A DNA stretch of 21,516 bases. Origin: a virus. The position numbers were made by a program, and so were the translations under genes. Shown here piece by piece: positions 4,191 to 21,516 of the stretch. How positions within the stretch are numbered: the stretch's first letter is position 1; every line of letters begins with the position of its first letter. The stretch is from IMG/VR virus record IMGVR_UViG_3300031952_000174, positions 1 through 21,516 of that record; one strand, 5' to 3'. The notes beneath the pieces are model-generated. The model worked only from the letters and a program-made list of their open reading frames with translations, ran no database searches and was not told where the DNA came from.

Positions 4191-5498
4191 TTATCCTGAT
4201 ATTATTTGTGAGACTCCTAGAAAAGCTTCAATATCGTCCCATTCTGAATTTTTTTCTTGTAATAAATCCAAATCCATCAGACTTATGTAATAATTCATAT
4301 AGCTTACTGAAGTATAACGGTCTTTCCGAGAACCAGCGGGTTCAATTAGTTTAACTAAACCTTGTGCCGGAGCCATTTCTAAAGCGATGCTTTCGTTTAT
4401 AAACAAACTTGTTTGTAAATGCGCTTGTAAAAGATATGCTCTTATTCCGGTATCGTCTTGGTCTAAAATATCCTTATTACCCGACTTTATTAAGAATTCT
4501 TCTTCGCTATTATCATCAATTAGGAATGTGATTAATTTTTTCTTTAATCTTTCTCTGAACTTTACTGCAATTAAAGAGTTTAGAGGTGCGGTAGCAGAAA
4601 TTGGGAATATACACTGTACAGCGCCCTGCCCAATAGTTCTAGTAATTAATTCATCGTATACTTTTGTATCTACGTTTATGGAATTCATTACTGTATAAGC
4701 GGGGTACTCTACACCTCTTATCTCATCTTTTGTTACCGCAGTTAATGCGTCGAAAACTGAAATTCCAGCATTTGCAAGGTCAAGTACCAGTACATCTCCT
4801 TGAAACTCCTCATAGATTTGTTTTATTCTTAATGCTTGTAAATTCGTATTTTTACCGTTGTGGGATTCCATGTAAACTACTTCGGTTAACCAGCCTCTTT
4901 TACTTGGTAATAATCTTCCACAGGTTATAATTGTATTGTCATTTGTCGAACCTGCTCGCATAGCTACATCAACAGAAACAATGCGCATTTCATCGCTTAG
5001 TTTTGGTATATCGTAATTATTTTTTCTGGTAGTTATGTAAACTTCATCTCGAATAGGTCTCCAACTTCTCTTTATACTTCTTTCGAATAAACCAAGTTTG
5101 TAGAACGATAAAGAGGATGACCCATATGGAATATTTCCGTATTCCATAAGAAATGTTATGGGGTCCATGTTGGACCTCTCTCTTATCATCTGATTTTTTG
5201 TTTTTATACCATGATGAATTGAAATCGGGTAATCCAAAAACAATGCTTTGGTATTAGTATCCCCGTCTGCAATCATTTTTAAGAATTTCTTCGTTTCTGG
5301 ATACCATTCATATGATTTATAATGTGCAGAAGAAATAATAATCTCTTGTGGTTCCTCTCTAAGTTCTGCAATTTCTGAATACTTAGGGTTTTTCATAAAA
5401 GGTGCTTGTCTTGATACAAGAAAAGGACGAATAATAGAATCTATAATTTCATTAGGTATTAAACGTCTTTCTTCTAAAACTGTTACATTGCTGCGGTG
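4191..5498 (-). CDS. terL: Terminase large subunit, exon 2 (Walker B and nuclease domain)
   Basis: This second exon supplies residues 175-609 of the spliced terminase, the packaging motor ATPase and headful nuclease. It opens with H-R-S-N-V then Walker B V-T-V-L-E-E (residues about 179-184, catalytic Glu), followed by R-R-L-I-P-N-E-I-I and R-P-F-L. An S-S-A-H-Y-K-S-Y coupling motif follows. The C-terminal RNase H-like nuclease has its first Asp in I-V-S-V-D-V-A (about residue 351), a second acidic motif in V-L-D-L-A-N-A-G, and a third in Q-D-D-T-G. The frame is open for 22 further codons upstream (to ATG 5564), but those lie in the intron, lack a ribosome binding site and do not resemble terminase. 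The exon boundary at 5498 is inferred from intron folding and frame. The portal gene follows after a 22-codon mini-ORF. Confidence 0.9.
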   Translation of the reverse strand, partial: HRSNVTVLEERRLIPNEIIDSIIRPFLVSRQAPFMKNPKYSEIAELREEPQEIIISSAHYKSYEWYPETKKFLKMIADGDTNTKALFLDYPISIHHGIKTKNQMIRERSNMDPITFLMEYGNIPYGSSSLSFYKLGLFERSIKRSWRPIRDEVYITTRKNNYDIPKLSDEMRIVSVDVAMRAGSTNDNTIITCGRLLPSKRGWLTEVVYMESHNGKNTNLQALRIKQIYEEFQGDVLVLDLANAGISVFDALTAVTKDEIRGVEYPAYTVMNSINVDTKVYDELITRTIGQGAVQCIFPISATAPLNSLIAVKFRERLKKKLITFLIDDNSEEEFLIKSGNKDILDQDDTGIRAYLLQAHLQTSLFINESIALEMAPAQGLVKLIEPAGSRKDRYTSVSYMNYYISLMDLDLLQEKNSEWDDIEAFLGVSQIISG

Positions 5499-6475
5499 CA
5501 TTTTGTTATCTGTAAAGTTTTTTATCTTTACATTCTTGAAATTTTTTTCTTTCAAGTTCAGCATATCTTTTTACCCTATAAGGGTAGGCGCACTCTTGGA
5601 GATATTATATTCTCATAAACATATATGAGATTCAAACCTTACTACTTTTTGAAATTTAATGATTTAATTTATATTTCATACAATCGATTAAAGAGACATA
5701 TGGATTTACTATTGATAAAAAATCTTCTGTTTTTCTAGCTGGTATATAAAGTCTTAAATGTTCTCTGTCTTTGTGGAGACTAGATTCAAAATTATATTTT
5801 TCATTAAAATATTTTTGTATATTTAATTGACTTTCGCTATCAAATCCTTGAATATGTAGAAATATACATTTTGTTTTATTTCGACCATCTTTGTGTTTTC
5901 GAATAGATAGCGTTCCATCATCCATAAACCAAACAGAAATTCCAATAGGGGTTAATTGGTCCAAAATACTATATGGAACAATCTTTTTTTTATTTTCATA
6001 CATTTCTTTATGTATATTTGTTATAAAGGTATGTGAACCGAGAATAGAATGAAACATCTTATAGATTTTATTTTTGTTTCCTTCAAAAATAGCTTTTCCA
6101 GAAAAAACAGAATCTATTTCTCGTGTCCAATAATTTTTATGCAAATTTTCTTTTAGTATTTCCATTTTCCATATCATATAATCGTATTGTTTTGGATTAT
6201 GGGTACAACCAATATTGTAATTTATGGAATTTTTGCCTAAATGGAGATATCCATCTCCAAGCAACATTCCAATTATAAAACTTTTTAAATCTTCTTTTGA
6301 TAAAATCATTTTAAATTTCTCCTTTGCCCAAAGAGCAAATATAATAAAAAGTAATAACTCTATGCGTTGCGTGTGAATAATTTATTAAAATTATTTTTCC
6401 ACTCGGGTTAGCGTCTCAGCTTTCCCGTTTCTTGCGCCATTTTTAATAAGCATTACTGCTTATTGAAGCCATTTG
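5499..6475 (-). ncRNA. Group I self-splicing intron (IA-like) in terL
   Basis: A complete set of group I helices can be drawn (plus-strand coordinates). P1: exon GAGGU 6476-6480 with GCUUC 6465-6469, giving the U.G pair at the 5' splice site. P2: 6457-6464/6445-6452, 8 bp. P3: 6433-6438/5587-5592. P4: CGGG/CCCG 6424-6427/6404-6407. P5: 6419-6421/6410-6412. P6 with an 8-bp extension: 6388-6395/6376-6383. P7: GCAUA 6361-6365 with UAUGC 5561-5565. P7.1: 6346-6357/5639-5650. P7.2: 5624-5630/5611-5617. P8: 5581-5586/5572-5577. P9: 5550-5556/5535-5541. P9.1: 5526-5532/5511-5517. The intron ends in G at 5499. Removing 977 nt joins G-G-R-G to H-R-S-N-V in frame. The extra P7.1/P7.2 helices point to subgroup IA. 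The folding was done by eye; a covariance-model match would confirm it. Confidence 0.88.
5656..6309 (-). CDS. LAGLIDADG homing endonuclease encoded in the terL intron
   Basis: A 217-residue two-motif LAGLIDADG protein. The first motif is F-I-I-G-M-L-L-G-D-G (residues 11-20, Asp19) and the second is S-V-W-F-M-D-D-G (residues 125-132, Asp130/Asp131). The L-T-P-x-G-I-x-x-W-F-M-D-D-G form is characteristic of the LAGLIDADG_2 family of intron-encoded endonucleases. It would cut intron-lacking terL genes at the intron insertion site and so spread the intron by homing. The ATG at 6309 follows AAGGAG by 8 bases, so it has its own translation start. The ORF lies between the P7 5' strand and P3, in the loop of a peripheral P7.1 helix, so it does not interrupt the ribozyme core. 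Both acidic motifs are intact, suggesting activity. Any additional role in splicing (maturase) cannot be judged. Confidence 0.93.
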   Translation of the reverse strand: MILSKEDLKSFIIGMLLGDGYLHLGKNSINYNIGCTHNPKQYDYMIWKMEILKENLHKNYWTREIDSVFSGKAIFEGNKNKIYKMFHSILGSHTFITNIHKEMYENKKKIVPYSILDQLTPIGISVWFMDDGTLSIRKHKDGRNKTKCIFLHIQGFDSESQLNIQKYFNEKYNFESSLHKDREHLRLYIPARKTEDFLSIVNPYVSLIDCMKYKLNH

Positions 6476-6997
6476 ACCTCTACCGCCTTCTCCACTTACT
6501 ACAACATTAATCTTTGAACCATTATAAAAATCCATGCGCCATTGATTTTGATTTGAAACAAGGTTGGAACATTCTCTAGCAATATTGGGGTGTTCATCTC
6601 GTAGAGACCTGCATTTTTCAGAAATAATAAGACCCGCTTGTGCTTTTGTAGAAGAAGCTAAGGCAACAGTAGTGCCGGGATATAAAATACATCTCGCAAT
6701 AGCATACACGGCGATTAACCATGACTTTGCACTAGCACGAGAGGCTATGCCTACAAACTCTGTTGACCTAGCCATTAAATTTAACCAAAAGCGTTGATAA
6801 GGGTATAGCGAGACTTGCATATAATGCTCTACAAAATACGATGGGTTTTGCCTATAGAAGCTGGTCCAACTTTTTATACGGTCACGTTTTTGTTTTGTCA
6901 TTTCCTTTTCGCTAAGAAATTTTAGGGATTCATTACTTCGAGAATAGGGCTTCATTTTTTTAAGCGGAGGGGTTTTTGATTTTTTGAATTTTTTCAT
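6476..6997 (-). CDS. terL: Terminase large subunit, exon 1 (Walker A)
   Basis: This exon supplies residues 1-174 of the packaging ATPase. The start is taken at ATG 6997, which has GGAG 7 bases upstream; an in-frame ATG at 7030 has no ribosome binding site and overlaps the upstream gene. Visible motifs are an adenine-binding Q-like motif L-Y-P-Y-Q-R-F-W-L-N-L-M (64-75) and Walker A A-S-R-A-S-A-K-S (85-92), a form common in phage terminases. The exon ends after G-E-G-G-R-G. Without splicing the frame runs only 10 codons into the intron before a stop, which would give a truncated protein with no Walker B or nuclease. The start is 16 bases after the stop of the 319-residue zinc-ribbon gene, so the two are likely co-transcribed. 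Confidence 0.9.
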
Positions 6998-7013
6998 ATC
7001 TTTTCTCCGATTT

Positions 7014-7973
7014 TTAATTTGTTTCCTCATCGAGATTCACAAAATTATTTACTTCTCTATCGTCAAATTCTCTTTCTATTTCTTCATTTTCGTCAACGTT
7101 AAAATCACGGCTTCCTGTAATAAATCCCCTGAGAGGGCGAACAATATACTTTTGAAAATATTCCTCGGTGTTACCCACGTCTCTGTAAATCTCTCCACGC
7201 GGGTCGGATTTTAGCCATTGGGCTGGTTCTTCGCGCTCTATGTCCGCAATCCATTGTCCGAAACTATCCCCTCCTGCGTTTAAAGCATTAGCTTTAGCTA
7301 CATTCGGAGAAATAGCCAATTTTGTCATTAGTTCTTGTAATTCTTTAACTAGTTTTATCGTATTGTTTCCGGCTAATCTCTCTTTTTTAATGTCTAAAAG
7401 ATTAAAACACACTTGCTTCAAAAGAACAACTTCTGCCCGGGTGTCCGTAGAATGGGTTTGTTTAAATTCTGCAAATTCTTTTTCTAAAAATAAAACATCT
7501 TCTTCTGGAATATCGTTTCCCCAAAATTCTATAACGTCTTGGGGGATGGGTATTTTTTTAATATCCACCTGTTTTTCAGTAAAAATTGTTCCTACATCCT
7601 CATATTGAAAATCGTTTATTCCCCCTTTATCCATCGACTTTTTAGTTGCTGTCAATTTCATCAAGTAGATGGAAAAAATAGCACTTACATTTTTACCATT
7701 ATCTATTAAAGTCTGTATGTGAGCTTTTGTGGCATCAAGAGCCTCATTGGTAAACCTAACATTCAGCGCTTGACACATGCGGTGGGTGGTTTTTTCCATA
7801 CTTTCATATTGTTGATAAAAATAATCGTATAGGTCCCCAATACATTTTTTGCAGACCGAAAATTTTCCATTTTTATCTATAATCATTCCGTCATAGGCAT
7901 TATAAAAATTATCAGCCGACAGGACCTTCATGCATTTTCGACAGTAGTATTTTTCTTTTTCATTATTTTCCAT
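7014..7973 (-). CDS. Zinc-ribbon protein, candidate terminase small subunit or packaging factor
   Basis: A 319-residue protein with an N-terminal four-Cys zinc ribbon, C-R-K-C at residues 11-14 and C-K-K-C at 41-44, spaced by about 26 residues. The middle is helical (E-F-A-E-F-K-Q-T, then L-V-K-E-L-Q-E-L-M), and the C-terminus is strongly acidic (repeated D-E-N-E-E, then D-D-R-E-V). It sits immediately upstream of terL, the usual position for the small terminase subunit, which recognises the packaging site. The zinc ribbon would suit DNA binding and the acidic tail would suit protein contacts. The length is greater than most small terminases (100-200 residues), and I do not recognise a specific family, so the role is inferred from position. 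The ribosome binding site is weak (AAAGG). Confidence 0.55.
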   Translation of the reverse strand: MENNEKEKYYCRKCMKVLSADNFYNAYDGMIIDKNGKFSVCKKCIGDLYDYFYQQYESMEKTTHRMCQALNVRFTNEALDATKAHIQTLIDNGKNVSAIFSIYLMKLTATKKSMDKGGINDFQYEDVGTIFTEKQVDIKKIPIPQDVIEFWGNDIPEEDVLFLEKEFAEFKQTHSTDTRAEVVLLKQVCFNLLDIKKERLAGNNTIKLVKELQELMTKLAISPNVAKANALNAGGDSFGQWIADIEREEPAQWLKSDPRGEIYRDVGNTEEYFQKYIVRPLRGFITGSRDFNVDENEEIEREFDDREVNNFVNLDEETN

Positions 7974-8038: not shown

Positions 8039-8068
8039 ATTATATACAAACCCTATATTATTTTTCAA
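8039..8068 (-). promoter_or_regulatory. Promoter-like sequence upstream of the packaging genes
   Basis: On the minus strand TTGAAA (8063-8068) is separated by 18 bases from a perfect TATAAT (8039-8044). It overlaps the end of the nucleosidase gene and would start transcription near 8032, inside the adjacent inverted repeat, driving the zinc-ribbon gene, terL, portal and downstream genes. In DNA this AT-rich such matches arise by chance, so this is a moderate call. Confidence 0.38.
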
Positions 8069-9014
8069 GTCCTATTTTGTAGTTATCAATAAAAGCTAAA
8101 GTAACAGCAGCCGAGTTATCAGCGGCAAGTTGGAAGAAAGTCCCAATTTGATTTTCTCCCTCTCCTCCTCCTGCAAGGTCACTGAGCGACCTAAAGCCAA
8201 GGAAAGGAATTTCGTTTGAATAAGCTACCTGTGCAACAGCGGCTGTTTCCATAGATAAAGAATCTGCGGTAAATGTTGCCCATACATACTCTCTAAATTC
8301 CGCATTATCGACAAAGGTTTGACCGTCTACTCCATTTCCACCAATTTTAATTATGGGTTGTTTATCTAAACAAACACCATCAGGGGTACATTTTTGAAGA
8401 AGTGTTTCTGGAATTGATTTTGTATATGAAAGCAATTCTTGAGAAACAGGAAACCAGAACATAGATACTCCTTCATCGGGTATAGCACCTTTTTTGTTGA
8501 CTGTAACTGAATTAGGAAACATCATCCCGTAATTCGGAAATTCTGGTATTCCCCCAAAAGGTAAAATAAATTCTCCATCAACCTCACGAGCAAAAGTCAT
8601 TTCTTGATATTGCGCCCATTGTGCGGGTATAACAACATCACCAATATTTAAGCTTGGATTAACTCCTCCGGCAATACCTGAGAAAATTAAATCCCTCACA
8701 TTGAAATTGTCAAAAAGAAGTTGGGTGTTACTGGCAGCGTTAACCATACTGACCCCGCTAAGAAAAAGGACAACATCAACCCCGTGAATGTTCCCCGTTG
8801 TAAATGTTTTACCGTTTAAAACATATTCGGTTTTGTCGGTGGTTTCCGAAAGCAGGATTTCAAGCTCACTATCAAAGGCGGATTCTACGCCAAGTCTAGG
8901 GGTGTTATCTAAAAGCCCCCCGGATTTTATTATGGGGAGCGAATATGCAAATGTTGCCACAAGAGCTATGACCAGAACTAGAATAACTACAATATAAACT
9001 TTATTACTTTTCAT
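8058..9014 (-). CDS. Exported or membrane-anchored MTA/SAH nucleosidase-family protein (PNP_UDP_1)
   Basis: A 318-residue protein of the purine nucleoside phosphorylase / 5'-methylthioadenosine-S-adenosylhomocysteine nucleosidase superfamily, which cleaves the N-glycosidic bond of nucleosides. Residues 6-29 form one hydrophobic segment after a short basic start, a signal anchor or signal peptide without a lipobox Cys. Family motifs are S-G-V-S-M-V-N-A-A (86-94), S-G-I-A-G-G (112-117), S-M-E-T-A-A (254-259, ribose-binding Glu256) and S-L-S-D-L-A-G-G (276-283, catalytic Asp279). A C-T-P-D-G-V-C pair suggests a disulphide and extracytoplasmic folding. ATG 9014 has an AGGAGA site. The enzyme class is clear; the exact substrate is not. 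It lies between a virion structural gene and the packaging genes, an unusual place for such an enzyme. Confidence 0.88.
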   Translation of the reverse strand: MKSNKVYIVVILVLVIALVATFAYSLPIIKSGGLLDNTPRLGVESAFDSELEILLSETTDKTEYVLNGKTFTTGNIHGVDVVLFLSGVSMVNAASNTQLLFDNFNVRDLIFSGIAGGVNPSLNIGDVVIPAQWAQYQEMTFAREVDGEFILPFGGIPEFPNYGMMFPNSVTVNKKGAIPDEGVSMFWFPVSQELLSYTKSIPETLLQKCTPDGVCLDKQPIIKIGGNGVDGQTFVDNAEFREYVWATFTADSLSMETAAVAQVAYSNEIPFLGFRSLSDLAGGGEGENQIGTFFQLAADNSAAVTLAFIDNYKIGLEK

Positions 9015-9118: not shown

Positions 9119-9400
9119 TTATCTTTCTTTTACGTCTATCTTAATCGTTCTTTCGTCCACCCTGCTTGCGCTTGTTGTCATTTTACAAGCTATAGAATAT
9201 CTTGTTCCAACACAACCGCTAGTTAACCATGCAACAACGCTCCCGGTTATTGTGCTTGTACTATAAAGATTAACTATTCCGCAGGGGGAAGTGTCTATTA
9301 CATAATCAGAAATAGTTTCACCATTATCCAGCCACTGTGACCAATCAAAACCATAATCTAATGTTGCATTCGGGTCTTTAATAAAAACATTTGATGACAT
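9119..9400 (-). CDS. Small phage structural protein (fibre/tail adaptor-like)
   Basis: A 93-residue beta-rich protein beginning with K-D-P-N-A-T-L-D-Y-G-F-D-W-S-Q-W-L, then G-E-T-I-S-D-Y, and ending R-V-D-E-R-T-I-K-I-D-V-K-E-R. This K-D-P-[DN]-A-x-L-D-Y-x-x-D-W-S-x-W-L opening with an R-x-D-x-R-[ST]-I ending is a pattern I recognise from small proteins conserved in many tailed phages next to tail-fibre or head genes, probably an Ig-like fold that binds fibres or decorates the virion. Its ATG overlaps the stop of the 723-residue gene (TAATG), and its GGAGGTGAT ribosome binding site encodes the G-G-D C-terminus of that protein, so expression is coupled. The assignment to a virion role is inferred from the family pattern and context. 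Confidence 0.72.
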   Translation of the reverse strand: MSSNVFIKDPNATLDYGFDWSQWLDNGETISDYVIDTSPCGIVNLYSTSTITGSVVAWLTSGCVGTRYSIACKMTTSASRVDERTIKIDVKER

Positions 9401-11571
9401 TAATCACCTCCCGCTATATAAATTGTTCTATCCTTATTGTCATTTCTTACTATAAAAGTTATTCTATTTTCATGCTTAATATAATATACCCTGTTTTCGT
9501 ATTCAATAATATCGTTTCTATTTTCAGCTTCAATATATAATCTTCTATATTCTATATAAATTGTTCTATCTTTATTGTCATTTCTTACTATAAAAGTTAT
9601 TCTATTTTCATATTTAATATAATATACTCTGTTTTCGTATTCAATAATATCATTTCTATTTTCAGCTTTAATATATAATCTTCTATATTTACCAGAAGTC
9701 ATTAAAAAATAAGTTAAGTGAAGCGCAAAAGCGATTTGTACTTGAATAGTATTATCGATTATTAAACTAAAAGTTAGTACATATGGGCTTAATGTTATAT
9801 TACCAGAGATTTGTGTTTGAATAGCATCATCGGTCTCTAAACTAAAAATAGGTGTTGTCCATGTTAAATTGTCTGATATTTGGGTTTGTGTAACATCCTG
9901 AACTATTATACTATAATGAGAACTTAATATTATATCTTCAACAACTTGCAATTGAAAAACATAATCAACTTTTAATGTATAATAAACAAATAATGTTACG
10001 CTATTCGAAGTTTGAACATGAACAGTATTATTAATTGCTAATATTTGATGCTGAATTAATTCTACTTTGTCGCCCGTTTGTAATTGGGTTGTATTATTAA
10101 CCGTTAATATATGATGCTGAATTAAAGCAATTGCATTAGCGATTTGTAGTTGAGTAGAATTATTAACTGCTAAAGTATAGTGTTGACTTAATACTATATT
10201 ATTGCTGCTTTGCAATTGAATTGCGTTTTGTACAGTTAATATTTGATGTTGCGTAAGATTTACATTTCCAGCAGTTTGTAATTGTATTGTGTTCTGTACT
10301 GGAAGTGTACCACCCTGAGCCAAGTTTATATTATCAGAAATTTGTAGTTGTGTAGCATTTTGAATTATTAATATCTGATGCTGTGTTAATGCCACATTTT
10401 CAGAAGTTTGTGCTTGAACAACATTATTAATTGCTAAGACCCGATGTTGAATTAAAGCTATCTTATCGCTAATTTGTGACTGAGTAGCACTATTTACAAC
10501 TAATACCCGATGTTGAATTAAAGCTATATTATCGCTAATTTGTGACTGAGTAGCACTATTTACAACTAATACCCGATATTGTGTCAATACTATATTATTA
10601 CTGGATTGTAATTGACTTGTGTTGTTTATTGCTAAAACTTGATGTTGAGTCAAAACTATGTTATTAGAAGTTTGTAATTGTGTAGCATTTTGTACTGTTA
10701 ATACATAATCTTGAGTTAAATCAACTTTATCGCTTGTTTGCGCTTGAGTTGAATTTTGTATAACCAATACTTGATGTTGAGTTAATATTACAGCATTAGA
10801 TGTTTGTAGCTGTATAGCGTTGTTGACTAAAATTGTATAATATGCAAATAATATAACATTGTCAGATGCCTGTGTTTGCACCGTATTATTAATAACCAAA
10901 ATATAATGTTGTATTAATAAGATATTATCAGAAGTTTGTAATTGTGTTGTATTACTTGTTACTAAAATATAATGTTGTGTTAATGCTACATTATTGCTGG
11001 TTTGTAACTGAGTAGCATCTTGAATTGTCAATATTCGATGCTGTGTTAATGCTACATTATCACTTGATTGTGCTTGCGCAACATTAACGACTGTTAAAGT
11101 ATAATAAGCAAGTAAGACTACATTATCACTAGTATGTGACTGAGTAGCATTATTTGTAATTAATATTTGATGTTGTGCTAAAGATATATTATTACTGGTC
11201 TGTAACTGAGCAACACCCTGAATAGTCAATACTTGATGTTGTGTTAATACTACATTTTCACTTGTTTGTGATTGAATAGAACTGTTAACTACTAATAAAT
11301 AATCCTGAATTAAAACTATATTTTCAGAAGTTTGTGCTTGTGTGGCATTAGTAACTGTTAAAGTATAATGAGCAAGCAAGACCACATTATTACTAGTATG
11401 TGACTGAGTAGCATTATTTATAACTAATATTTGATGTTGCGTTAAGGCTACATCGTCACTGGTCTGTACTTGGGTAGCATTATCAACACTTAAAAAAGGG
11501 ATTTCACTTCCAAAGTCAATATTGAAAGCAGCCCCCGGATTTAATAGTTTAATATCATGGGAGTATGCCAT
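9400..11571 (-). CDS. Repeat protein with about 26 copies of a 22-residue unit, likely fibre or virion surface protein
   Basis: A 723-residue protein. Residues 1-28 are unique (M-A-Y-S-H-D-I-K-L-L-N-P-G). Residues about 29-610 are tandem 22-residue units with core A-T-Q-x-Q-T-S-x-N-V-x-L-T-Q-H followed by a hydrophobic strand ending in V-N-N. Residues 629-719 are two nearly identical 46-residue blocks rich in E-N-R (Y-R-R-L-Y-I, E-Y-E-N-R-V-Y-Y-I, then D-R-T-I-Y-I). The alternating polar/hydrophobic pattern and absence of Cys fit an elongated beta-structured fibre. It shares both the 22-residue unit and the E-N-R motif with the giant protein two genes upstream, so the two are paralogous. The start has GGAGG 7 bases upstream. 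The function is inferred from architecture and from its place beside structural genes; no enzymatic domain is visible. Confidence 0.78.
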   Translation of the reverse strand: MAYSHDIKLLNPGAAFNIDFGSEIPFLSVDNATQVQTSDDVALTQHQILVINNATQSHTSNNVVLLAHYTLTVTNATQAQTSENIVLIQDYLLVVNSSIQSQTSENVVLTQHQVLTIQGVAQLQTSNNISLAQHQILITNNATQSHTSDNVVLLAYYTLTVVNVAQAQSSDNVALTQHRILTIQDATQLQTSNNVALTQHYILVTSNTTQLQTSDNILLIQHYILVINNTVQTQASDNVILFAYYTILVNNAIQLQTSNAVILTQHQVLVIQNSTQAQTSDKVDLTQDYVLTVQNATQLQTSNNIVLTQHQVLAINNTSQLQSSNNIVLTQYRVLVVNSATQSQISDNIALIQHRVLVVNSATQSQISDKIALIQHRVLAINNVVQAQTSENVALTQHQILIIQNATQLQISDNINLAQGGTLPVQNTIQLQTAGNVNLTQHQILTVQNAIQLQSSNNIVLSQHYTLAVNNSTQLQIANAIALIQHHILTVNNTTQLQTGDKVELIQHQILAINNTVHVQTSNSVTLFVYYTLKVDYVFQLQVVEDIILSSHYSIIVQDVTQTQISDNLTWTTPIFSLETDDAIQTQISGNITLSPYVLTFSLIIDNTIQVQIAFALHLTYFLMTSGKYRRLYIKAENRNDIIEYENRVYYIKYENRITFIVRNDNKDRTIYIEYRRLYIEAENRNDIIEYENRVYYIKHENRITFIVRNDNKDRTIYIAGGD
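9414..9689 (-). repeat. 138-bp tandem duplication in the 3' end of the 723-residue gene
   Basis: Two direct copies, 9414-9551 and 9552-9689, differ at only 6 of 138 positions by my count, and all six differences are transitions. The unit is exactly 46 codons, so the frame is kept. It duplicates the E-N-R motif block at the C-terminus. Confidence 0.9.
9742..11487 (-). repeat. Tandem 66-bp (22-codon) repeat array in the 723-residue gene
   Basis: About 26 degenerate in-frame units. On the plus strand each is seen as a recurring TGATGTTGAGTTAA-like word plus a GTTTGTAATTG-like word at 66-base spacing. Two adjacent units near 10439-10570 are almost identical, showing recent unit duplication. No spacers intervene, so this is a coding repeat and not a CRISPR array. 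Confidence 0.92.
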
Positions 11572-11585
11572 AACTGCACCTCCCT

Positions 11586-13565
11586 TTAAACTGCTAAGGC
11601 ACTAGCAGACCTTCCTATATGAGTTCCATCTTGACTTGCTGAAGCATAAACGGGATAGACATTATCAAAAATATTCAATGTATAAGAACCGCTAGAGGTG
11701 CTCAAAGCAGACCCGCTCCAGGCATTATCTGTAGCTCTTATCACATCCACTAGCACATTTGAACCACTTGCGGCAGGATTTGAAAATGAACCGCTCACAA
11801 CAAAAGTATTGCTATGATGAGTCAGATACATCTTCAACCAAAACAACGCTGCGGTGGAATAGTGCGCACGATATTTTCTTGCGCTTTCGATGTTCATTTG
11901 CCCTATATGTAAATTATCTTGGTTGAAACTATCGAGACCCGCTCCGATTTGTTTATAAGTTGCTAATTCACCATCATTACTATGTACAAATACATCAATA
12001 TTTCTCCAACCGTCCCCGTTAAATTCTCCAGCTAGTTTTTCAGAATGAATAGAAATCCCATTAACCGCTGCTCCCCATCTAGAACCGATTTCATAACCAA
12101 CACCGTTTAGAAAATATTCGGGGTTTACAATTGTAGGTGTTCTTTGTGTTGCCGTTGCAATTTCGTTCATAGTAGCCACAGCACCGGAAGTTGCTTGGGA
12201 AGCCAAAAACCAAATAGTCGTATGGTTGTGGGCTTTCTCTTCTTGCGGAGAAGAGGCGGAAGTATAATTAATATAAGTTAGACCGACCAAACTATTAACC
12301 GTTGCGGCAACACTTGTATAGACTTTAAGATTAAGGGTATTTTTACCTCTCGCTAAAGTAAAACCTGAATTATGGTCAACTCTATGTACGAGAGCATGTC
12401 CACCAGAGTTAACCAGAGCCGTGAGGGTATATGGTCTTGCTGTTTGTCCTCCCGCTAAAAGATTGAAAGTAGCACCGCCCGCAGATTGCGCATAGAATAA
12501 AACGCCAGATTGTGCTAATATTGGATTAGGCTCTTCTACCCATAAATCCCTTTGAAAATAATTTCCATCGGCGGATGTAGTTGACCCCACATAACCGGGA
12601 TTTGTATCTAAAGGTAATATTACCGAGTTCATTACACTTGCGGAGGTTGAGTCATATTCATAGGTTACACAATATAATCCTCCAAATGTATCAAATCTTG
12701 TGGCAGTACTTGAATATGCTTTAAAAGCACTGGCTGCGCTTGCACTGATTGAATAGGGGGTTATTACTACACCAGAACCATTGGTATATTTGGTTAACCA
12801 AATATCATAAAAATAAGTCCCTGTATTCAATGCTTGTTCCAAATAACATCTTGATGCTGCTGTATTATTGTTTATCTGATAAAGTGCCCAAAAGTCTGTT
12901 GTTGCCGCACCCCCGTCATTACCAAACATTTCAAACCAAGTCGATAAATAGGTCTTATTTGTTTCAGGAAGAAATGTATCTAAAGCTGGAATTTGATTGG
13001 CGGGGGCGGGCGTTGTACCTCCCGTTCCTATTTCAATTGCGGTAGCAATTAAAGGCGAACTTCCGCTTTGAATAGGAACACGTACAGTTTTTACACTTCT
13101 TGAACCTGAACTATCATATTCATAAGTTATAATTAATTTTGCTGTTAGATTTTCGACATCGGCTGCTGTAGCTGTTGCTATGGCGAGACTGGCTTGACAG
13201 CTTTGGCTTGCGCTTGCTCCAAAGTTTGAAACAAAGTAATTGGTAACATCTCGAATAACTAGACCCGCCTCATGGTCGCCTGTATTGGCTTGTGCGGTAG
13301 GGGAAAAATCTACATCACTAGCTGCCGCAACACCGAGCCTAATACCCATACGCCAGCCAGAAACATTATAAACAGTGGTAAAAGCATCACGCCAGCCACA
13401 TTCCAGTATTACTGATTTGAAGGTTCTCGATGTTATTTCTGGTATAGTTAAACCAATCAAAGGAAAATCCCAACGTGTAGACGCTCCCAGCGATGTACCA
13501 GTTGTTATGTTGCTTCCAGTGGTAGCAAAAACATATTCAACAGTTTTTTCAGCATCAGCAGCCAT
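11586..13565 (-). CDS. 659-residue beta-rich virion structural protein
   Basis: A protein rich in Ala, Ser, Thr and Asn with no signal peptide. It contains two or three related beta-sandwich-like stretches with recurring T-Y-E-Y-D-S-[ST]-[GS] segments (near residues 150 and 300) followed by V-x-[IL]-P-[IL], suggesting duplicated domains. The C-terminal about 75 residues (G-S-F-S-N-P-A, W-S-G-S-A-L-S-T, S-Y-T-L-N-I-F) resemble a carboxypeptidase-regulatory-like or Ig-like fold, as is common in phage receptor-binding and tail proteins. The start is ATG 13565 with GGAAGG upstream. It lies between the two 22-residue-repeat proteins with gaps of 36 and 14 bases, so the three are probably one structural unit. 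I do not recognise a specific family; a host-contact or neck/tail surface role is inference. Confidence 0.68.
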   Translation of the reverse strand: MAADAEKTVEYVFATTGSNITTGTSLGASTRWDFPLIGLTIPEITSRTFKSVILECGWRDAFTTVYNVSGWRMGIRLGVAAASDVDFSPTAQANTGDHEAGLVIRDVTNYFVSNFGASASQSCQASLAIATATAADVENLTAKLIITYEYDSSGSRSVKTVRVPIQSGSSPLIATAIEIGTGGTTPAPANQIPALDTFLPETNKTYLSTWFEMFGNDGGAATTDFWALYQINNNTAASRCYLEQALNTGTYFYDIWLTKYTNGSGVVITPYSISASAASAFKAYSSTATRFDTFGGLYCVTYEYDSTSASVMNSVILPLDTNPGYVGSTTSADGNYFQRDLWVEEPNPILAQSGVLFYAQSAGGATFNLLAGGQTARPYTLTALVNSGGHALVHRVDHNSGFTLARGKNTLNLKVYTSVAATVNSLVGLTYINYTSASSPQEEKAHNHTTIWFLASQATSGAVATMNEIATATQRTPTIVNPEYFLNGVGYEIGSRWGAAVNGISIHSEKLAGEFNGDGWRNIDVFVHSNDGELATYKQIGAGLDSFNQDNLHIGQMNIESARKYRAHYSTAALFWLKMYLTHHSNTFVVSGSFSNPAASGSNVLVDVIRATDNAWSGSALSTSSGSYTLNIFDNVYPVYASASQDGTHIGRSASALAV

Positions 13566-13601: not shown

Positions 13602-16600
13602 TTATAAAACCCCTCTTCTATTATCATTATCATCAACCCAAGGAGGTATAACATAGAATCTATTTTCTGCTTTAATTGTATAACTCCTATCCTCGAATAT
13701 AATAATATATGTCCTAGAACTAGGTGTCTCCAATACTCGGAAATAAATCAAAGCAATTTTCGTGGCTATTTGTGCTTGGGCAGCGTTATTGATTATTAGA
13801 GTATAATAATTAGAAGTTATTATTATATTATCGCTAGTTTGTTTTTGAACAGTGTCTTGAACAACAAGAATAACTCTTGATATTATATCGCTAGTTGTTT
13901 GTAATTGTACAGCATTGTTGACTATTATAGTATAATGTGCGAATAATACCACATTTTCAGCGGTTTGAGGTTGAATAGCGCTATTGGTTATTATGCTATA
14001 GTGGGCAAATAATGTTACCTTGCCCGCCGTCTGTAATTGAATGGTATTATTAATTATTAGAATATAATGTTGAATTAAAGTTATACTATTTGCTGTTTGC
14101 AACTGAATAGCGTTTTGTACTTGCAATATTTGATGCTGTATTAAAATTACACTATCAGAGGTTTGTAATTGAACAGCATTATTAACCGCCAAAACACAAT
14201 GCTGAAGTAATATCACATTGTTGGAAGTTTGTAATTGAGTAGCGTTGTTAACTGTTGTTAAGATAAAGCGATAAACTAAAGTTATATTATCTGCTGTTTG
14301 CAACTGAAGAGCGTTTTGTATTACTATTACATGATGTTGTATTAAAAGTATATTATTTGCTGTTTGTAGTTGTATAACATTTTGAACTGATAATATATGA
14401 TGTTGAGTTAAAATTATACTGTCTGCTGTTTGTAATTGAATTATACTATTAATTACTAAGACATGATGCTGAGTTAAAATTATACTTTCAGAAGTTTGTA
14501 TTTGGATTGTATTTTTAACTGCTAAAATATAATTTTGAGATAATGCTATATTATCAGAGGTTTGTAATTGAACAACATTATTAACCGCCAATATATGATG
14601 TTGGATTAAAACTATATTGGTTGATGTTTGCAGTTGAGTTGCGTTATTAACTGTTAATACATGATGCTGTATTAAAATTACATTATCAGAGGTTTGTAGT
14701 TGGGTTGCGTTATTAATTGTTAATACATGATGTTGAGTTAAAACAATATTGCCCGCTGTTTGTAATTGAGTTGCATTATTAATTGACAACACATGATGCT
14801 GAACTAATACTATATTTTGAGCGGTTTGTAATTGAATAGCATCTTGTATTGATAAAATACCCGCCGTCGCAAGTATTATATTTTGAGCGGCTTGTAATTG
14901 AGTAGAATTTTGAACAGATAATATCTGATGCTGAATTAATACTATATTTTCAGATGTTTGTAATTGAGTAGCACTTTGGACAAATAATATCTGATGTTGT
15001 GTTAATATTACATTTTCAGACGTTTGCGGCTGTATAGAATTATAAACTGTTATAGCATAATGTGCAAATAAAATTGTATTTTCTGCTGTTTGCGCTTGAG
15101 TAGCATTATTAACTAATAATACTTGGTGTTGAGTTAGAATTACGTTTTCCGAAGTCTGTAATTGGGTTGTATTATTAATTGTTAAAATATAATGTTGAAT
15201 TAATGTTACATTTTCAGAAGTTTGTAATTGAGCAATATTATTGATAGCCAATACTTGATGTTGAGTTAATGTTACATTATCGGCAATTTGAACTTGAATA
15301 ACATTATTGATAACCAACACTTGATGTTGAGTTAATGTTACGTTATCAGCAATTTGAACTTGAATAGCGTTATTGACTAAAAGATAACCCGCAAAATGTT
15401 GGGTTAGTTCTATATTATTGCTGGTTTGTAATTGAGTAACATTTTGAACTGATAATATATAATGCTGTGTTAATTCTACATTATTTACAATTTGCGTTTG
15501 GATAGCATTTTGCACTTCCAAACTAAATGCAAGCATGTGCTGCGTTAATATTACATTCTCGGAAGTTTGTGGTTGTGTTGCGTTTTGAACTGTTACAATA
15601 TAGTGTGCAAATAATATTGTATTATCGGAAGTTTGCAATTGAGTTGCGTTTAAAACAACCAAAACATAATGCTGAACTAGATTTATATTGCTTGCAGTTT
15701 GAGACTGAGTAGAGCCATTGATTAACAGGATTTGATGTTGTATCAACCCGATATTATCGGAAGTTTGCAATTGTGAAGCGCCGCCGACCAATAATACTTG
15801 ATGTTGAATCAATACAATATTTTCTGCAACTTGCAAATGGATAGCACTATTTGTTGATATGTTATAATGTTGTGTCAATCCAACGTTATCGGCGCTTTGT
15901 AGATGTGTAGCATTACTAGTCGTCAATATCTGATGTTGAGTTAATACAATATGCTGTGCTGTTTGTGTTTGAGCAGCATTTTGTACAACCAATAAACCAA
16001 ACATATGAGCAATCAGGGTTATATTATCTGCTGTTTGTAATTGAGTAGCATTACTGATTGCTAGTATATGGTGCTGTGTTAATGCAACATTTTCGACAAC
16101 TTGATATTGTGTAACATTGTTAATAACCAATATCTGATGCTGAATTAATGTTATATTTTCAGATGTTTGACTCTGAATAGCATTATTAATTGTTAATATA
16201 TAATGAGCAAATAATGTTATATTCTCACTGGTCTGCGACTGTGTTGCATTTTGAATAACTAATACTTGGTGCTGAGTTAATGTAACACCATTTGCAGTTT
16301 GTAGTTGGATTGTATTCTGAATACCCAATACTTGATGCTGTATTAATATTATACTATCCGAAGTCTGCCCCTGTGTAGTATTGTTGGTTATTAATATTTG
16401 ATGCTGAATTAGTGCAATAGTATCAGAGGTTTGCGATTGGATAGTGCCTTGGACAACCAATACCTGATGTTGAGTAAGCAAAATATTGTCTGAGGTTTGT
16501 AATTGGGTTGTATTCTGTACTGCCAAACTGTAATGTGCAAATAATGTTATATTGTCTGATGCTTGAGCTTGAGTAACATTGTTTACTACTATAACATAGT

Positions 16601-19600
16601 GAGCCAGTAATCCTACAGCATCAGAAGTTTGCGCTTGCGTTGCACTACCGATTATCAAAATATGATGTTGTGTTAATGCTATATTTTGAGAACTTTGTAG
16701 TTGAGTAGAATTATCAACTAATATATTATAATACCCTTGATAATTTAGTATTATATTATTTGCGGTTTGAATTTGGGTAGAATTATTAACTATTATTTGA
16801 TGTACAACTAATAAAACCTTATCCGCTGTTTGTGATTGTGTAGTATTATTAATCGATAAAACGTAATGTTGGGTTAAAGCAACATTGTCGGAAGTCTGTG
16901 TTTGTGTAGCATTGTTAATTATTATCTGGTGTACAACTAATAAAACTTTATCGGAAGTCTGAACTTGGGCGGCATTGTTAATCCCCAATACTTGATGTTG
17001 AGTTAGAACTACAATACCTGATGTTTGTAATTGTATTGCACTTTGAATTGTAAGTAGATAATCTTGAGTTAAAAGAATATTGTCAGATGTTTGTAATTGT
17101 GTAGAAGAAGCAATAACCAAAATTTGATGTTGAGTTAGAACTACAACACCGGAAGTCTGTAATTGTATTGCACCTTGAATTGCTAATAAATAATTTTGAG
17201 TTAAAACTACAACACTAGAAGTTTGTAATTGAATTGCATTAGCAACTACTAATACTTGATGTTGAGTTAAAACTACATTTCCCGAAGTTTGTAATTGTGT
17301 AGCATTATTGACCAATAAACCATAATGCTGAATCAGAACTATGTTATCGGAAGTTTGTAACTGAATAGCATTATTAATACTCAATACTTGATGTTGAAGC
17401 GGGATTATGCTATCCGATGTTTGATTTTGAATAGCGCTGTTTACTACAATAGCATAGTGAGCAAATAATATTGTGGTATCAGAGGTTTGAAGCTGAATAG
17501 CATTATTGATTCCCAATACTTGATGCTGAGTTAAGGTTATATTGTCTGATGTTTGCGCCTGTGTTGCGTTATTTACTACTATGTTATAATGAGCAAACAA
17601 TATTATGTTTTCGGCGGTTTGCGCTTGAATGGAACTATTAACCGACAATACTTGATTCTGAGTTAATGCTATGTTCTCGGATGTTTGATTCTGAACAGCA
17701 TTATTTATTACTATACTATAATGTGCAAAAAGTGCAACGTTATCAGAAATTTGTAATTGGGGTGTATTTTGAACAATCAATATCTGGTATTGAGTTAAAA
17801 TTACATTGCCTGATATCTGCAATTGAGTAGCATTATTAACCCCTAATACTTGGTGCTGAGTTAATGCTATTGTCTCGGCAGTTTGTGTTTGTGAAGCACT
17901 ATTGACTAGTAATACTTGATGTTGAGTTAAAGCTACTTTATCTGATGTTTGAGCTTGGGCTGTGTTATTTACCCCCAACACTTGATGTTGAGTTAATACT
18001 ATGCTCTCAGATATTTGACTCTGAACAGCATTATTTATTACTATACTATAATGTGCAAAAAGCGCAATATTATCGGAAGTCTGTAATTGTATTGTACTTT
18101 GAACAATTAATATTTGATGTTGAGTTAATGTTACATTACCCGATGTTTGTGATTGAGTGGTATTATTAATCACTAACGCTTGATGCTGAGTTAGTGCAAC
18201 TATTTCGGTAGTTTGTGCTTGTGTGGTGTTATTAACCACTAATACTTGATGTTGAGTTAAAGCTACTTTATCCGATGTTTGAACCTGCGCCGTGTTATTT
18301 ACCGCTAACACTTGATGTTGAGTTAAAATCACATTTTCAGAAGTATGCACTTGAGTGGCATTGTTAATTGTTATCGAATAATGGGCGCTTAAGATTACGT
18401 TCTCTGATGTTTGTGCTATAGTACAATTATTAACTACCAGTGTGTAATGAGCGGTTAATACAACATCACCCGCCGTATGAATTTGAGTAGCATTATTAAC
18501 CAATATGATATAATGCGCACTCAAGATTATGGCTCCCGATGTTTGTGTGTGTACTGTATTTTGGACGGATAATAGATAATTTTGAGTTAATACAATATTA
18601 TTTGAAGTGTGTACATGAATAGAATTATTGAGAATTAACGATGCTTCGATTGAATGGTATATAAGATTTAGATGGGGAGAAATTTCATATGGGAAATAAT
18701 CTAAAGGCATACCAAACATGCCAAAATATTCATTTCTCAATATATAATCAACTATACCAGTAATAATTTCTAATGTTATCTGCCCTTGTGTTGTATTATT
18801 AACTATTAATACCCAAACCCGAACTATAATTATTTTATCAGAAGTTTGTACCTGAGTGGCATTGTTAATCATCAATGCATGATGTTGGGTTAAAACTATA
18901 TTATCGGGAGTTTGTAATTGAATAGATGCATTGATAGCCAATATTTGATGTTGGGTTAAAGTTACAGTTCCCGAGGTTTGTAATTGAGTAGTGCTATTAA
19001 CCTTCAATATCTGATGTTGAGTTAAAGCTATAATTTCCGAAATCTGTGCCTGAATAGCATTGTTAAGTACTAGAGGAGTATAGTGTTGAGCCAGAGCTAC
19101 AGTATCTGAAACTTGCAACTGAGTTGCAGTATTAACAACTAGAACTTGATGCTGCGTTAAAGTTACAATTTCAGATGTTTGTAAGTGGATTGCGGCATTG
19201 GCTGCTATAGCTCCGCTTGGAATTATTATTACACTCCCGGCGGTCTGTAACTGAGTGGCACTATTAATTACTAAGATATTATGTTGAATTAAAGCGACAT
19301 TGTTGGCGGTCTGTAATTGAGTAGAAATATTAACAAACAAAATTTGGTGTTGGGTTAAAACAACAATTTCAGAAGTCTGTGATTGAGTGGCATTATTAAC
19401 TGTAATTGAATAGTAAGCGAATAGTGCAACATTCCCGCTTGTTTGTAACTGAGTAGCAATAGCAATTGCTAAAAGCTGATGTTGAGTTAGTAATATATTA
19501 TCTGCTGTTTGAGCTTGTGTCGCATTGCTTATGGTTAATATTTGATGTTGGGTTAAGGCTACAGCGCCAGAAATTTGTAACTGAGTAGCATTGTCGGCTA

Positions 19601-21516
19601 TAATTGAATAGTGAGCAAATAATGCAATATTGTTGCTTGTTTGTAACTGAGTAGAAGTACCAACTGCCAAAAGCTGATGTTGAGTTAATAATACATTATC
19701 CGATGTTTGAGCTTGTGTTACATTATTTACAATTAATATTTGATGCTGAGTTAACGCGAGAGTGCCGGAAGTCTGTAATTGAATAGATGTATTGATAACC
19801 AACACCTGATGTTGAGTTAATATCACATTTCCAGAAGTCTGCAATTGAGTAGTGTTATTAATTGCTAATATCTGATGTTGAGTTAAAGCTATAGTTTCCG
19901 AAGCCTGTGCCTGAATAGCATTATTGAGTATTAGAGGGGTATAGTGCTGAGCCAGAGTTACAATATCTGAAACCTGCAACTGCGTTGCAGTATTAGCGAT
20001 TAAAGCTTGATGTTGCGTTAAAGCTACAGTTACAGATGTTTGTAAGTGTATTGCTGTGTTGGTTGCTATAGCCCCGCTTGGAATTATTGCCGCGCTGTCG
20101 GCGGTTTGTAACTGACTGGCGCTATTAATTACTAAAATATTATGCTGTGTTAAAGCAATATTATTAACGGTCTGTAATTGAGTAGAAGTATTAACAAACA
20201 AAATTTGATGCTGAGTTAAAGTTACAGTTCCCGAAGTTTGTAATTGTGTAGTGGCGACAATTGCCAAAACCTGATGCTGAGTTGGAGATATATTATCTGA
20301 AGATTGTGATTGTGTTGTTCCTTGAACTATAAGCAAATAATCTTGGGCTATTGCTATTTTATCAGAAGTCTGTAACTGAGTAACCCCATTGACAAACAAT
20401 ATCTGATGTTGTATTAAGTCTACACTTCCAGATGTTTGTAACTGAGTGGCATTATTGACTATAATTGAATAATGAGCAAACAATGTAACCCTATCGCTTG
20501 TTTGCAACTGACTAGCCCCATTAACCACTAATATCTGATGCTGTGTTAGGGCGACAATACCAGAAGCCTGTAATTGTGTTGCTCCTTGAACTGTAAGGGA
20601 ATAATCTTGGATTAATGTTATTTTATCAGAAGCCTGTAATTGAGTAGCATTGCCAATCACCAATACTTGATGCTGAATTAAACTTACAACATCCGATGTT
20701 TGTAGTTGGGTCGCATTTTTTACTATTATTTGATGTACAATTAATAAAACATTGTTTGATGTTTGTAACTGAGTAGAATCTTGAACCGTAAGTAAATAAT
20801 CTTGGATTAAGGCTATGGCGTCCGAAGTTTGTAGTTGAGTCGCATTCTTTACTATTATTTGGTGTACAACTAATATAATATTATTTGATGTTTGTGCCTG
20901 AGTAGCGCCCTGAACCGTAAGTAAATAATCTTGGGTTAAGGCTACAACATCCGAAGTTTGTAATTGTGCAGCACTACCAATCATTAATATTTGATGTTGG
21001 GTTAATGCCACAACTCCGGAAATCTGTGATTGAGCGGAATTATTGACCGTTAATGTAACTGTTCCTGAATAATATGTTAGTGTCGGTTTCTCAGAAGCCT
21101 GTAGTTGAGTAGTGCTATTGACTACAATTGAATAATGAGCAGACAACGCAACATTTTCACTTATTTGTAATTGAGTAGCAATAGCAACTGCCAAAATTTG
21201 ATGTTGAGTTAAAGCAACAATTCCGGATGTTTGTAAATGAGTAACACTTTGAACTGTAAGTAAATAATCTTGAGTTAAAGCGACATTATCAGAAGTTTGT
21301 AGTTGAGTCGCATTCTTTACTATTATTTGGTGTACAACTAATAAAACATTATTTGATGTTTGTAACTGAGTAGCGCTTTGAACTGTAAGGGAATAATCTT
21401 GAGTTAGTGCTACAGCGCCCGAAGTTTGCGCTTGAGTTGCATTCTTTACTATTATTTGGTGTACAACTAATAAAACATTATTTGAAGTTTGTGATTGTGT
21501 AGCACCGCTAACTACT
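13602..21516 (-). CDS. Giant 22-residue-repeat protein (fibre/adhesin-like), N-terminus beyond window
   Basis: An uninterrupted frame of about 2,637 codons, open to the right edge, so the true start is outside. A TTG at 21194 could be taken as a start, but the repeat continues in frame upstream of it. About 115 units of 22 residues are visible. The first strand is [NS]-x-T-Q-x-Q-T-S. The second half comes in recurring types: T-Q-H-Q-x-L-x-V-N, T-Q-D-Y-x-L-T-V-Q, F-A-H-Y-x-I-x-V-N, and a 21-residue V-V-H-Q-I-I-V-K-N form. One non-repeat island of about 40 residues interrupts the array (18640-18763). The last about 50 residues are unique, with E-D-R-S-Y-T-I and A-E-N-R-F-Y-V-I motifs and an acidic/basic end. 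Composition is dominated by Q, T, N, S, V, I, L and A. It fits a very long extracellular fibre or solenoid; attachment to host or surface display is inferred. Confidence 0.85.
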   Translation of the reverse strand, partial: VVSGATQSQTSNNVLLVVHQIIVKNATQAQTSGAVALTQDYSLTVQSATQLQTSNNVLLVVHQIIVKNATQLQTSDNVALTQDYLLTVQSVTHLQTSGIVALTQHQILAVAIATQLQISENVALSAHYSIVVNSTTQLQASEKPTLTYYSGTVTLTVNNSAQSQISGVVALTQHQILMIGSAAQLQTSDVVALTQDYLLTVQGATQAQTSNNIILVVHQIIVKNATQLQTSDAIALIQDYLLTVQDSTQLQTSNNVLLIVHQIIVKNATQLQTSDVVSLIQHQVLVIGNATQLQASDKITLIQDYSLTVQGATQLQASGIVALTQHQILVVNGASQLQTSDRVTLFAHYSIIVNNATQLQTSGSVDLIQHQILFVNGVTQLQTSDKIAIAQDYLLIVQGTTQSQSSDNISPTQHQVLAIVATTQLQTSGTVTLTQHQILFVNTSTQLQTVNNIALTQHNILVINSASQLQTADSAAIIPSGAIATNTAIHLQTSVTVALTQHQALIANTATQLQVSDIVTLAQHYTPLILNNAIQAQASETIALTQHQILAINNTTQLQTSGNVILTQHQVLVINTSIQLQTSGTLALTQHQILIVNNVTQAQTSDNVLLTQHQLLAVGTSTQLQTSNNIALFAHYSIIADNATQLQISGAVALTQHQILTISNATQAQTADNILLTQHQLLAIAIATQLQTSGNVALFAYYSITVNNATQSQTSEIVVLTQHQILFVNISTQLQTANNVALIQHNILVINSATQLQTAGSVIIIPSGAIAANAAIHLQTSEIVTLTQHQVLVVNTATQLQVSDTVALAQHYTPLVLNNAIQAQISEIIALTQHQILKVNSTTQLQTSGTVTLTQHQILAINASIQLQTPDNIVLTQHHALMINNATQVQTSDKIIIVRVWVLIVNNTTQGQITLEIITGIVDYILRNEYFGMFGMPLDYFPYEISPHLNLIYHSIEASLILNNSIHVHTSNNIVLTQNYLLSVQNTVHTQTSGAIILSAHYIILVNNATQIHTAGDVVLTAHYTLVVNNCTIAQTSENVILSAHYSITINNATQVHTSENVILTQHQVLAVNNTAQVQTSDKVALTQHQVLVVNNTTQAQTTEIVALTQHQALVINNTTQSQTSGNVTLTQHQILIVQSTIQLQTSDNIALFAHYSIVINNAVQSQISESIVLTQHQVLGVNNTAQAQTSDKVALTQHQVLLVNSASQTQTAETIALTQHQVLGVNNATQLQISGNVILTQYQILIVQNTPQLQISDNVALFAHYSIVINNAVQNQTSENIALTQNQVLSVNSSIQAQTAENIILFAHYNIVVNNATQAQTSDNITLTQHQVLGINNAIQLQTSDTTILFAHYAIVVNSAIQNQTSDSIIPLQHQVLSINNAIQLQTSDNIVLIQHYGLLVNNATQLQTSGNVVLTQHQVLVVANAIQLQTSSVVVLTQNYLLAIQGAIQLQTSGVVVLTQHQILVIASSTQLQTSDNILLTQDYLLTIQSAIQLQTSGIVVLTQHQVLGINNAAQVQTSDKVLLVVHQIIINNATQTQTSDNVALTQHYVLSINNTTQSQTADKVLLVVHQIIVNNSTQIQTANNIILNYQGYYNILVDNSTQLQSSQNIALTQHHILIIGSATQAQTSDAVGLLAHYVIVVNNVTQAQASDNITLFAHYSLAVQNTTQLQTSDNILLTQHQVLVVQGTIQSQTSDTIALIQHQILITNNTTQGQTSDSIILIQHQVLGIQNTIQLQTANGVTLTQHQVLVIQNATQSQTSENITLFAHYILTINNAIQSQTSENITLIQHQILVINNVTQYQVVENVALTQHHILAISNATQLQTADNITLIAHMFGLLVVQNAAQTQTAQHIVLTQHQILTTSNATHLQSADNVGLTQHYNISTNSAIHLQVAENIVLIQHQVLLVGGASQLQTSDNIGLIQHQILLINGSTQSQTASNINLVQHYVLVVLNATQLQTSDNTILFAHYIVTVQNATQPQTSENVILTQHMLAFSLEVQNAIQTQIVNNVELTQHYILSVQNVTQLQTSNNIELTQHFAGYLLVNNAIQVQIADNVTLTQHQVLVINNVIQVQIADNVTLTQHQVLAINNIAQLQTSENVTLIQHYILTINNTTQLQTSENVILTQHQVLLVNNATQAQTAENTILFAHYAITVYNSIQPQTSENVILTQHQILFVQSATQLQTSENIVLIQHQILSVQNSTQLQAAQNIILATAGILSIQDAIQLQTAQNIVLVQHHVLSINNATQLQTAGNIVLTQHHVLTINNATQLQTSDNVILIQHHVLTVNNATQLQTSTNIVLIQHHILAVNNVVQLQTSDNIALSQNYILAVKNTIQIQTSESIILTQHHVLVINSIIQLQTADSIILTQHHILSVQNVIQLQTANNILLIQHHVIVIQNALQLQTADNITLVYRFILTTVNNATQLQTSNNVILLQHCVLAVNNAVQLQTSDSVILIQHQILQVQNAIQLQTANSITLIQHYILIINNTIQLQTAGKVTLFAHYSIITNSAIQPQTAENVVLFAHYTIIVNNAVQLQTTSDIISRVILVVQDTVQKQTSDNIIITSNYYTLIINNAAQAQIATKIALIYFRVLETPSSRTYIIIFEDRSYTIKAENRFYVIPPWVDDNDNRRGVL
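18640..18763 (-). other. Non-repetitive island inside the giant repeat array
   Basis: The stretch encodes about 40 residues (G-I-V-D-Y-I-L-R-N, E-Y-F-G-M-F-G-M-P-L-D-Y-F-P-Y, then I-Y-H-S-I-E-A) that bear no resemblance to the 22-residue unit and are rich in Tyr, Phe and Met. The array resumes in frame on both sides. The insertion point matches the turn position where other units carry short extra residues. Confidence 0.8.
18970..20211 (-). repeat. Higher-order duplication, 861-bp offset
   Basis: Segments of about 380 bases at 18970-19350 and 19831-20211 are closely related at a constant offset of 861 bases (287 codons, about 13 units). Both contain the same two atypical units in the same order, one with I-P-S-G-A-I-A and one with A-Q-H-Y-T-P-L. 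This shows block duplication beyond single-unit slippage. Confidence 0.75.
21311..21516 (-). repeat. 129-bp two-unit repeat at the right edge
   Basis: A 21-codon V-V-H-Q-I-I-V-K-N unit and a 22-codon T-Q-D-Y unit alternate as a 43-codon dimer. The word beginning CATTCTTTACTATTATTTGG recurs at 21311 and 21440, and similar copies lie near 20715 and 20845. The array clearly continues past the window edge. Confidence 0.8.

Follow-up and report, generated by a model that had tools for sequence, protein, structure and literature searches.

Phage appendages with parts comparable to those of the locus presented here have been described in several viruses. In the podophage GP4 (PDB 8JOU), Gp77 (PF23148) is the fiber-tail adaptor and Gp80 (PF23140) is fiber I. 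The neck of Shigella virus Sf14 (9C39) carries the whiskers gp30/gp31 as neck appendages (PMC11821841). LSH1 possesses an extra structural module (gp34-gp36) in which a polysaccharide-lyase-like N-domain precedes a C-terminal part that is beta-helical, poorly predicted and suspected to be repetitive, and one protein of this module matches 8JOU (PMC13243795); it is likened to the present fibre by description. Most characterised side fibres attach by their N-terminus (PMC13243795).

The DNA analyzed here, referred to as the window, is a whole virus record of 21,516 bp. The original prediction missed this, as well as the completion of the giant repeat gene in a second record, IMGVR_UViG_3300035701_000059 (contig G001; 47,683 bp or 47.7 kb), which comes from a different dataset. 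The following features of the fibre cluster were assigned:

13602..21515, minus strand: giant repeat fibre, C-terminal 2,637 of 3,394 residues, about 114 units of 22 aa
18610..18790 (approximate), minus strand: long break in the repeat array, the single one within the window (residues ~910-966)
13605..13720, minus strand: C-terminal tail of the giant, proposed virion anchor, with the 9-residue motif R-T-Y-I-I-I-F-E-D-R-S-Y-T-I-K-A-E-N-R-F-Y-V-I
11586..13565, minus strand: protein of 659 aa, encoded between the fibre genes, without family match
9400..11571, minus strand: another repeat fibre gene (723 aa), with about 25 copies of the 22-residue unit of the giant
9119..9400, minus strand: Gp77-type fiber-tail adaptor, 93 aa (PF23148 E 1.5e-20; PDB 8jou_D E 2.9e-7)
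G001:32145-34415, upstream and outside the window: the missing 757 N-terminal residues of the giant

The giant ORF probably encodes the base and the stalk region of a modular neck or tail fibre that is anchored by its C-terminus, carries an N-terminal adhesin and has a beta-rich stalk of tunable length. The extremely long fibre of the original prediction is thereby supported.

Within the window, the ORF comprises 2,637 codons, is 5′-open at the window edge and ends with the stop codon at 13602-13604. The identity at a lag of 22 residues was 0.42, compared to a shuffle maximum of 0.12, and the next peaks were found at lags of 44 and 66. Using a position-specific matrix built from the units of this ORF, 114 units were identified, covering 2,508 of 2,638 positions, with an exact spacing of 22 in 96 cases. 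This agrees with the original prediction of more than 2,600 codons consisting almost entirely of about 115 copies of one 22-residue unit. Charged residues, which had been described as few, account for 4.9%; the claimed absence of cysteine was not confirmed, as two were counted. A further ORF at 9400-11571(-), built from this unit as well, had been overlooked.

The repeat pattern of the giant ORF is real coding sequence. The other five frames of the region contain 169 to 288 stops, and the divergence among the units is highest at the third codon position (0.55, compared to 0.43 and 0.32). The phage is known solely from metagenomic contigs, which is the point in favour of the array being an assembly artefact from expanded repeats. 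The probability of this is close to nil, since three contigs in all are concordant: G001 differs from the window ORF at 2 of 7,914 nt, and contig G002 matches it over its own part, the datasets being numbered differently and their samples not necessarily independent. The expanded or collapsed repeats that had been named in advance as a possible refutation are thus excluded by two further contigs. In addition, the mean identity between the units is 57% (nucleotide) and 45% (amino acid), with no neighbouring pair above 0.90, and at this divergence expansion or collapse by an assembler is hardly possible.

As expected from the start lying off the window, the gene could be completed from G001 (24231-34415(-)), resulting in a protein of 3,394 aa and 367 kDa. 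It is composed of two N-terminal domains of about 220 aa, about 125 units and a C-terminal tail with the 9-residue motif. The same domain is present twice, at residues 1-230 and ~310-530 (E ~1e-88 to each other), and no match to it was found in the family libraries. The break at residues ~910-966 contains the insert ...YILRNEYFGMFGMPLDYFPYEISPHLNLIYH..., and a similar insert is present in the relative G006.

For the fold of the unit, nine units were modelled with AlphaFold2 using 19 aligned segments. The prediction is all-beta, with two strands per unit and no helix. The best of five models reached a pLDDT of 73 and a pTM of 0.72, the others a pLDDT of 51 to 62. Since AlphaFold2 is documented to over-predict beta-solenoids from repeat sequences (PMC11795689), the model alone is insufficient to establish the fold. 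A Foldseek search with the unit model gave no significant match, every E-value being above 0.01; the weak matches were mostly beta-helices or beta-solenoids, and further ones were 'Curlin associated' phage proteins and, at rank 16, FapC. Collagen-like and coiled-coil fibres, from which the unit had been distinguished in the original prediction, were both rejected: the former on account of a glycine content of 2.2% and the lack of Gly-x-y runs (no run of four G-x-x), the latter on account of the all-beta prediction without helix and the period of 22 rather than 7.

A leucine occupies unit positions 10 and 16 in 76-91% of the units, positions 8 and 18 mostly remain hydrophobic, and changes in unit length are concentrated between positions 11 and 15. 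This looks like the pattern expected of a strand-turn-strand unit. A flexible, low-complexity Q/T/N-rich tether, serving as a floppy leash for the N-terminal domains, would fit the modest AlphaFold2 confidence, with a single model of five above pLDDT 62, and the documented solenoid bias. It would also fit phage Mae-JY04, in which the C-terminal anchor and the adaptor are paired with unrelated repeats, so that the repeat might serve its purpose irrespective of its fold. Such a tether is nevertheless considered rather unlikely, as the strict register of 22 and the conserved leucine and hydrophobic positions extend across 49 diverse phages and the length changes look like those of a folded unit in which a turn between the strands tolerates variation. 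The repeat may adopt a beta-solenoid fold, as predicted by a model of modest confidence.

In curlin (CsgA), the repeat unit has about 22 residues, contains two strands and has Gln residues spaced by 11 positions. The present unit shares the length, the two strands and the Gln spacing, which, along with the weak structural matches to 'Curlin associated' phage proteins and FapC, would be in line with a curli-like functional amyloid, i.e. a cross-beta solenoid with Gln/Asn ladders whose units may also join between molecules into an adhesive matrix or inter-virion contacts. This reading is improbable: the repeat of the window differs from curlin in that neither the giant nor the 723-aa ORF gave any match in Pfam at E up to 1, curlin included, and all Foldseek E-values exceed 0.01. 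Most relatives have His instead of Gln, so the Gln ladder is not conserved. Identity with curlin was rejected on the basis of the Pfam result.

Next to the predicted beta-solenoid, the distribution of the repeat was analyzed. It is common in IMG/VR as a [HQ]x[HQ]TADNVxLTQxHxLxVxDA unit. The unit, written as a degenerate DNA pattern, matched 33 times in the window (0 expected) and in about 20 further contigs of an IMG/VR scan, the proteins of which carry the unit as QxQTSDN or, often, as HxHTADN. Phage repeats of the H-x-H-T-A-D type, which the original prediction had put forward as a family perhaps without described structure, do exist. No convincing match and no family model for the repeat were found in Pfam, PHROGs and NCBIfam, a PDB sequence search with the repeat and the C-terminal tail yielded no credible match, and a literature search gave no publication describing a phage fibre repeat of 22 residues. 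Scans with protein patterns from the 723-aa ORF and the Mae-JY22 protein revealed no further relatives. The unit is a member of a widespread, unnamed phage fibre repeat family adjoining neck and tail fibre genes. The number of units ranges between 4 and about 125, the giant of the window being the largest seen. A third repeat protein of G001 (772 aa) has another globular domain embedded within the array.

The search of cultured phages identified the 22-residue unit in the Microcystis phage Mae-JY22, the sole isolate found with the whole module. Its hypothetical protein (PP438414, XAI95683) contains 7 copies of the 22-aa unit (HxHxxDA type), a weak lectin-like match in the N-domain and a 9-mer C-terminal tail, with a 123-aa partner and Gp77 encoded nearby. 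It differs from the giant in the number of units (7 compared to 125) and in being annotated merely as hypothetical; the ORF used here begins upstream of the annotated start. A related 22-residue repeat of a different type, LTADNVExASETTAPEIGQTHA, was observed in gp11 of Octadecabacter virus DB2 (L072:6778-8304), close to a relative of the 123-aa partner, which suggests a wider superfamily.

In most repeat-bearing contigs, a 123-aa protein adjoins the repeat gene. The linkage was examined by searching IMG/VR with this partner alone, so that the loci were unselected for repeats. A 22-periodic ORF on the same strand was found in 49 of 65 distinct partner loci, many within about 50 nt of the partner, and 10 of the 16 loci without it have less than 2 kb of sequence downstream (mostly truncated contigs). 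None of 19 random IMG/VR loci had a 22-periodic ORF (Fisher p 1e-9), this control being small and its loci shorter on average than the partner loci. The matrix derived from the window detected at least 4 units in all 49 partner-linked repeat proteins (4 to 32 each).

No convincing match for the partner was found in Pfam, PHROGs and NCBIfam. Its predicted structure (pLDDT 94) gave Foldseek matches with a prob of 1.00 to the Sf14 neck (9c39_K, E 7e-4), the Bas63 connector (9MT4) and 7-7-1 tail fibres, and a weaker one to the GP4 fiber I (8jou_a, prob 0.84); HHalign of the partner against Gp80 resulted in a prob of 60%. The sequence identity to the best fold matches, those of Sf14 and Bas63, is only about 11-12%, and the matched Sf14 chain K may or may not be one of the whiskers. 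These neck and fiber folds place the repeat-fibre module, by inference, at the neck or tail, and from its gene neighbours the giant is presumably present on the virion.

The locus further resembles GP4 in that a Gp77 homologue adjoins the repeat fibres and that Gp80 paralogues are located upstream on the contig carrying the complete giant. Two genes of this upstream tandem run in G001 were tested, and both contain Gp80 'fiber I' domains (PF23140 E 2.4e-57; 8jou_a E 1.1e-8). Judging by a weak match to a major tail protein in G001, the phage may be long-tailed, which would distinguish it from the podophage. The fibre linked to Gp77 here also differs in having about 125 units of a repeat without PDB match; the comparison with GP4 covered Gp77, Gp80 and the partner, which weakly resembles fiber I in fold.

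The C-terminus of the giant consists of the tandem 9-residue motif R-x-Φ-x-Φ-x-x-E-[ND]-R. The same block occurs twice in the 723-aa fibre, within a 138-bp tandem duplication (95% identical, 9414-9689), by which the putative anchor is itself duplicated, and the Gp77 gene at 9119-9400 follows directly downstream. In the relatives, a different type of C-terminal tail is often accompanied by a different small gene downstream. Gp77 was found with 9-mer tails, BppU_N-like proteins (matching Pfam below threshold) with other tails, and a 183-aa protein with 'GGGxxIxxMMHYxRLRSK' tails. L031 and L048 have a common N-domain (5e-27) and repeat, but differ in tail and adaptor, with a 9-mer tail and Gp77 in L031 and a different tail and a BppU-like gene in L048. 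In the isolated phages Mae-JY04, BcepMigl, BcepIL02, Itty13, Atu_ph08 and PBC5, the 9-mer tail is found with other repeats in the gene before Gp77; several Gp77-bearing mycobacterial, Gordonia and Rhodococcus phages have no 9-mer tail. The association of tail motif and Gp77 over all loci (15/6/8/29, p 2.6e-4) is inflated by loci found through Gp77, and in the partner-selected loci with the strict motif (7/5/8/23) it is marginal (p 0.05). That the tail type tracks the adjacent adaptor is suggestive, not proven. In the virion of the Bcep22-like phage JC1, the Gp77 homologue gp55 was found by mass spectrometry, the upstream gp54 being unlisted (PMC9144972). A search of the PDB with BcepMigl gp57 for an 8JOU fibre chain gave no match.

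The gene order and these module swaps point to attachment by the C-terminus. Attachment by the N-terminal domains, with the 9-residue motif at the distal tip as in classical fibres, would correspond to the usual polarity of characterised side fibres (PMC13243795), and the duplicated N-domain of the giant could be a docking domain. This arrangement is unlikely, given that the C-terminal tail follows the type of the adjacent adaptor gene and that the N-domains differ between phages, many showing no detectable relationship despite a common repeat and adaptor. They include a lectin-like one in the relative L047 (Laminin_G_3, 2.9e-22); the match of the Mae-JY22 N-domain is weaker (Laminin_G_3, 2.3e-4). 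A common N-domain superfamily had been suspected by eye, for which HHalign gave no support. The N-domain of the giant itself is without match, and a role in receptor binding is proposed from its position.

With attachment by the C-terminus, the two N-terminal globular domains of about 220 aa would form the distal adhesin and the ~125 units of beta-rich repeat the stalk, with a length of about 60 nm if one unit corresponds to one 0.48-nm solenoid rung. The tandem R-x-Phi-x-Phi-x-x-E-x-R 9-mers would dock on the downstream-encoded adaptor Gp77 and fix the fibre by its C-terminus. The 123-aa whisker/fiber-I-like protein, encoded with the fibres across phages, may be part of the appendage, and the stalk length would vary by gain or loss of whole 22-aa units. 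More tentatively, the family may constitute a widespread undescribed appendage class, characterized by a beta-solenoid stalk of 22-residue rungs, C-terminal neck or tail attachment via interchangeable tail/adaptor pairs, an N-terminal lectin-like tip and a reach set by the number of rungs (4 to ~125).

The 22-aa repeat fibre, the whisker-like partner and the tail/adaptor pair form a recognisable module, present in dozens of uncultured phages and one cultured Microcystis phage. Neither repeat nor partner has an existing family model. The module allows such genes to be annotated as fibres, and from the tail/adaptor pairing it can be predicted, in a testable way, by which small adaptor a given fibre is held. 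The reversed polarity is offered as a hypothesis, and the range of unit numbers raises the question of how phages set the reach of their fibres.

The 659-aa protein encoded between the two fibre genes, without convincing match in Pfam and PHROGs, is likely another appendage component. Directly downstream of the fibre cluster, an NAD-dependent sugar-nucleotide epimerase-like gene was observed in two relatives (L031:5278-6012, PF01370 1.2e-53; L051:3003-4016). Between the fibre adaptor and the terminase, the window encodes a nucleoside phosphorylase-superfamily protein (8058-9014(-), PF01048 9.7e-40), the N-terminus of which apparently bears a membrane or lipoprotein signal; the protein is also found in L031.

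The gene of the terminase large subunit (window 4191-7030) is split, its two ORFs flanking a gene for a LAGLIDADG endonuclease (5656-6309, PF03161 1.7e-31), and an Rfam search for a group I intron at this site gave no match. In L031 and L051, this site is occupied by another endonuclease-like gene; the terminase of G006 is intact. A ferritin-like protein is encoded near the portal gene (window 1541-2029(-), PF00210 1.3e-19), with similar ORFs in G006 and L051. In the relative L027, a 785-aa protein (16532-18889(-)) gave a match (2.5e-11) to PF05183, a family of RNA-dependent RNA polymerases, and contains a DFDGD motif.
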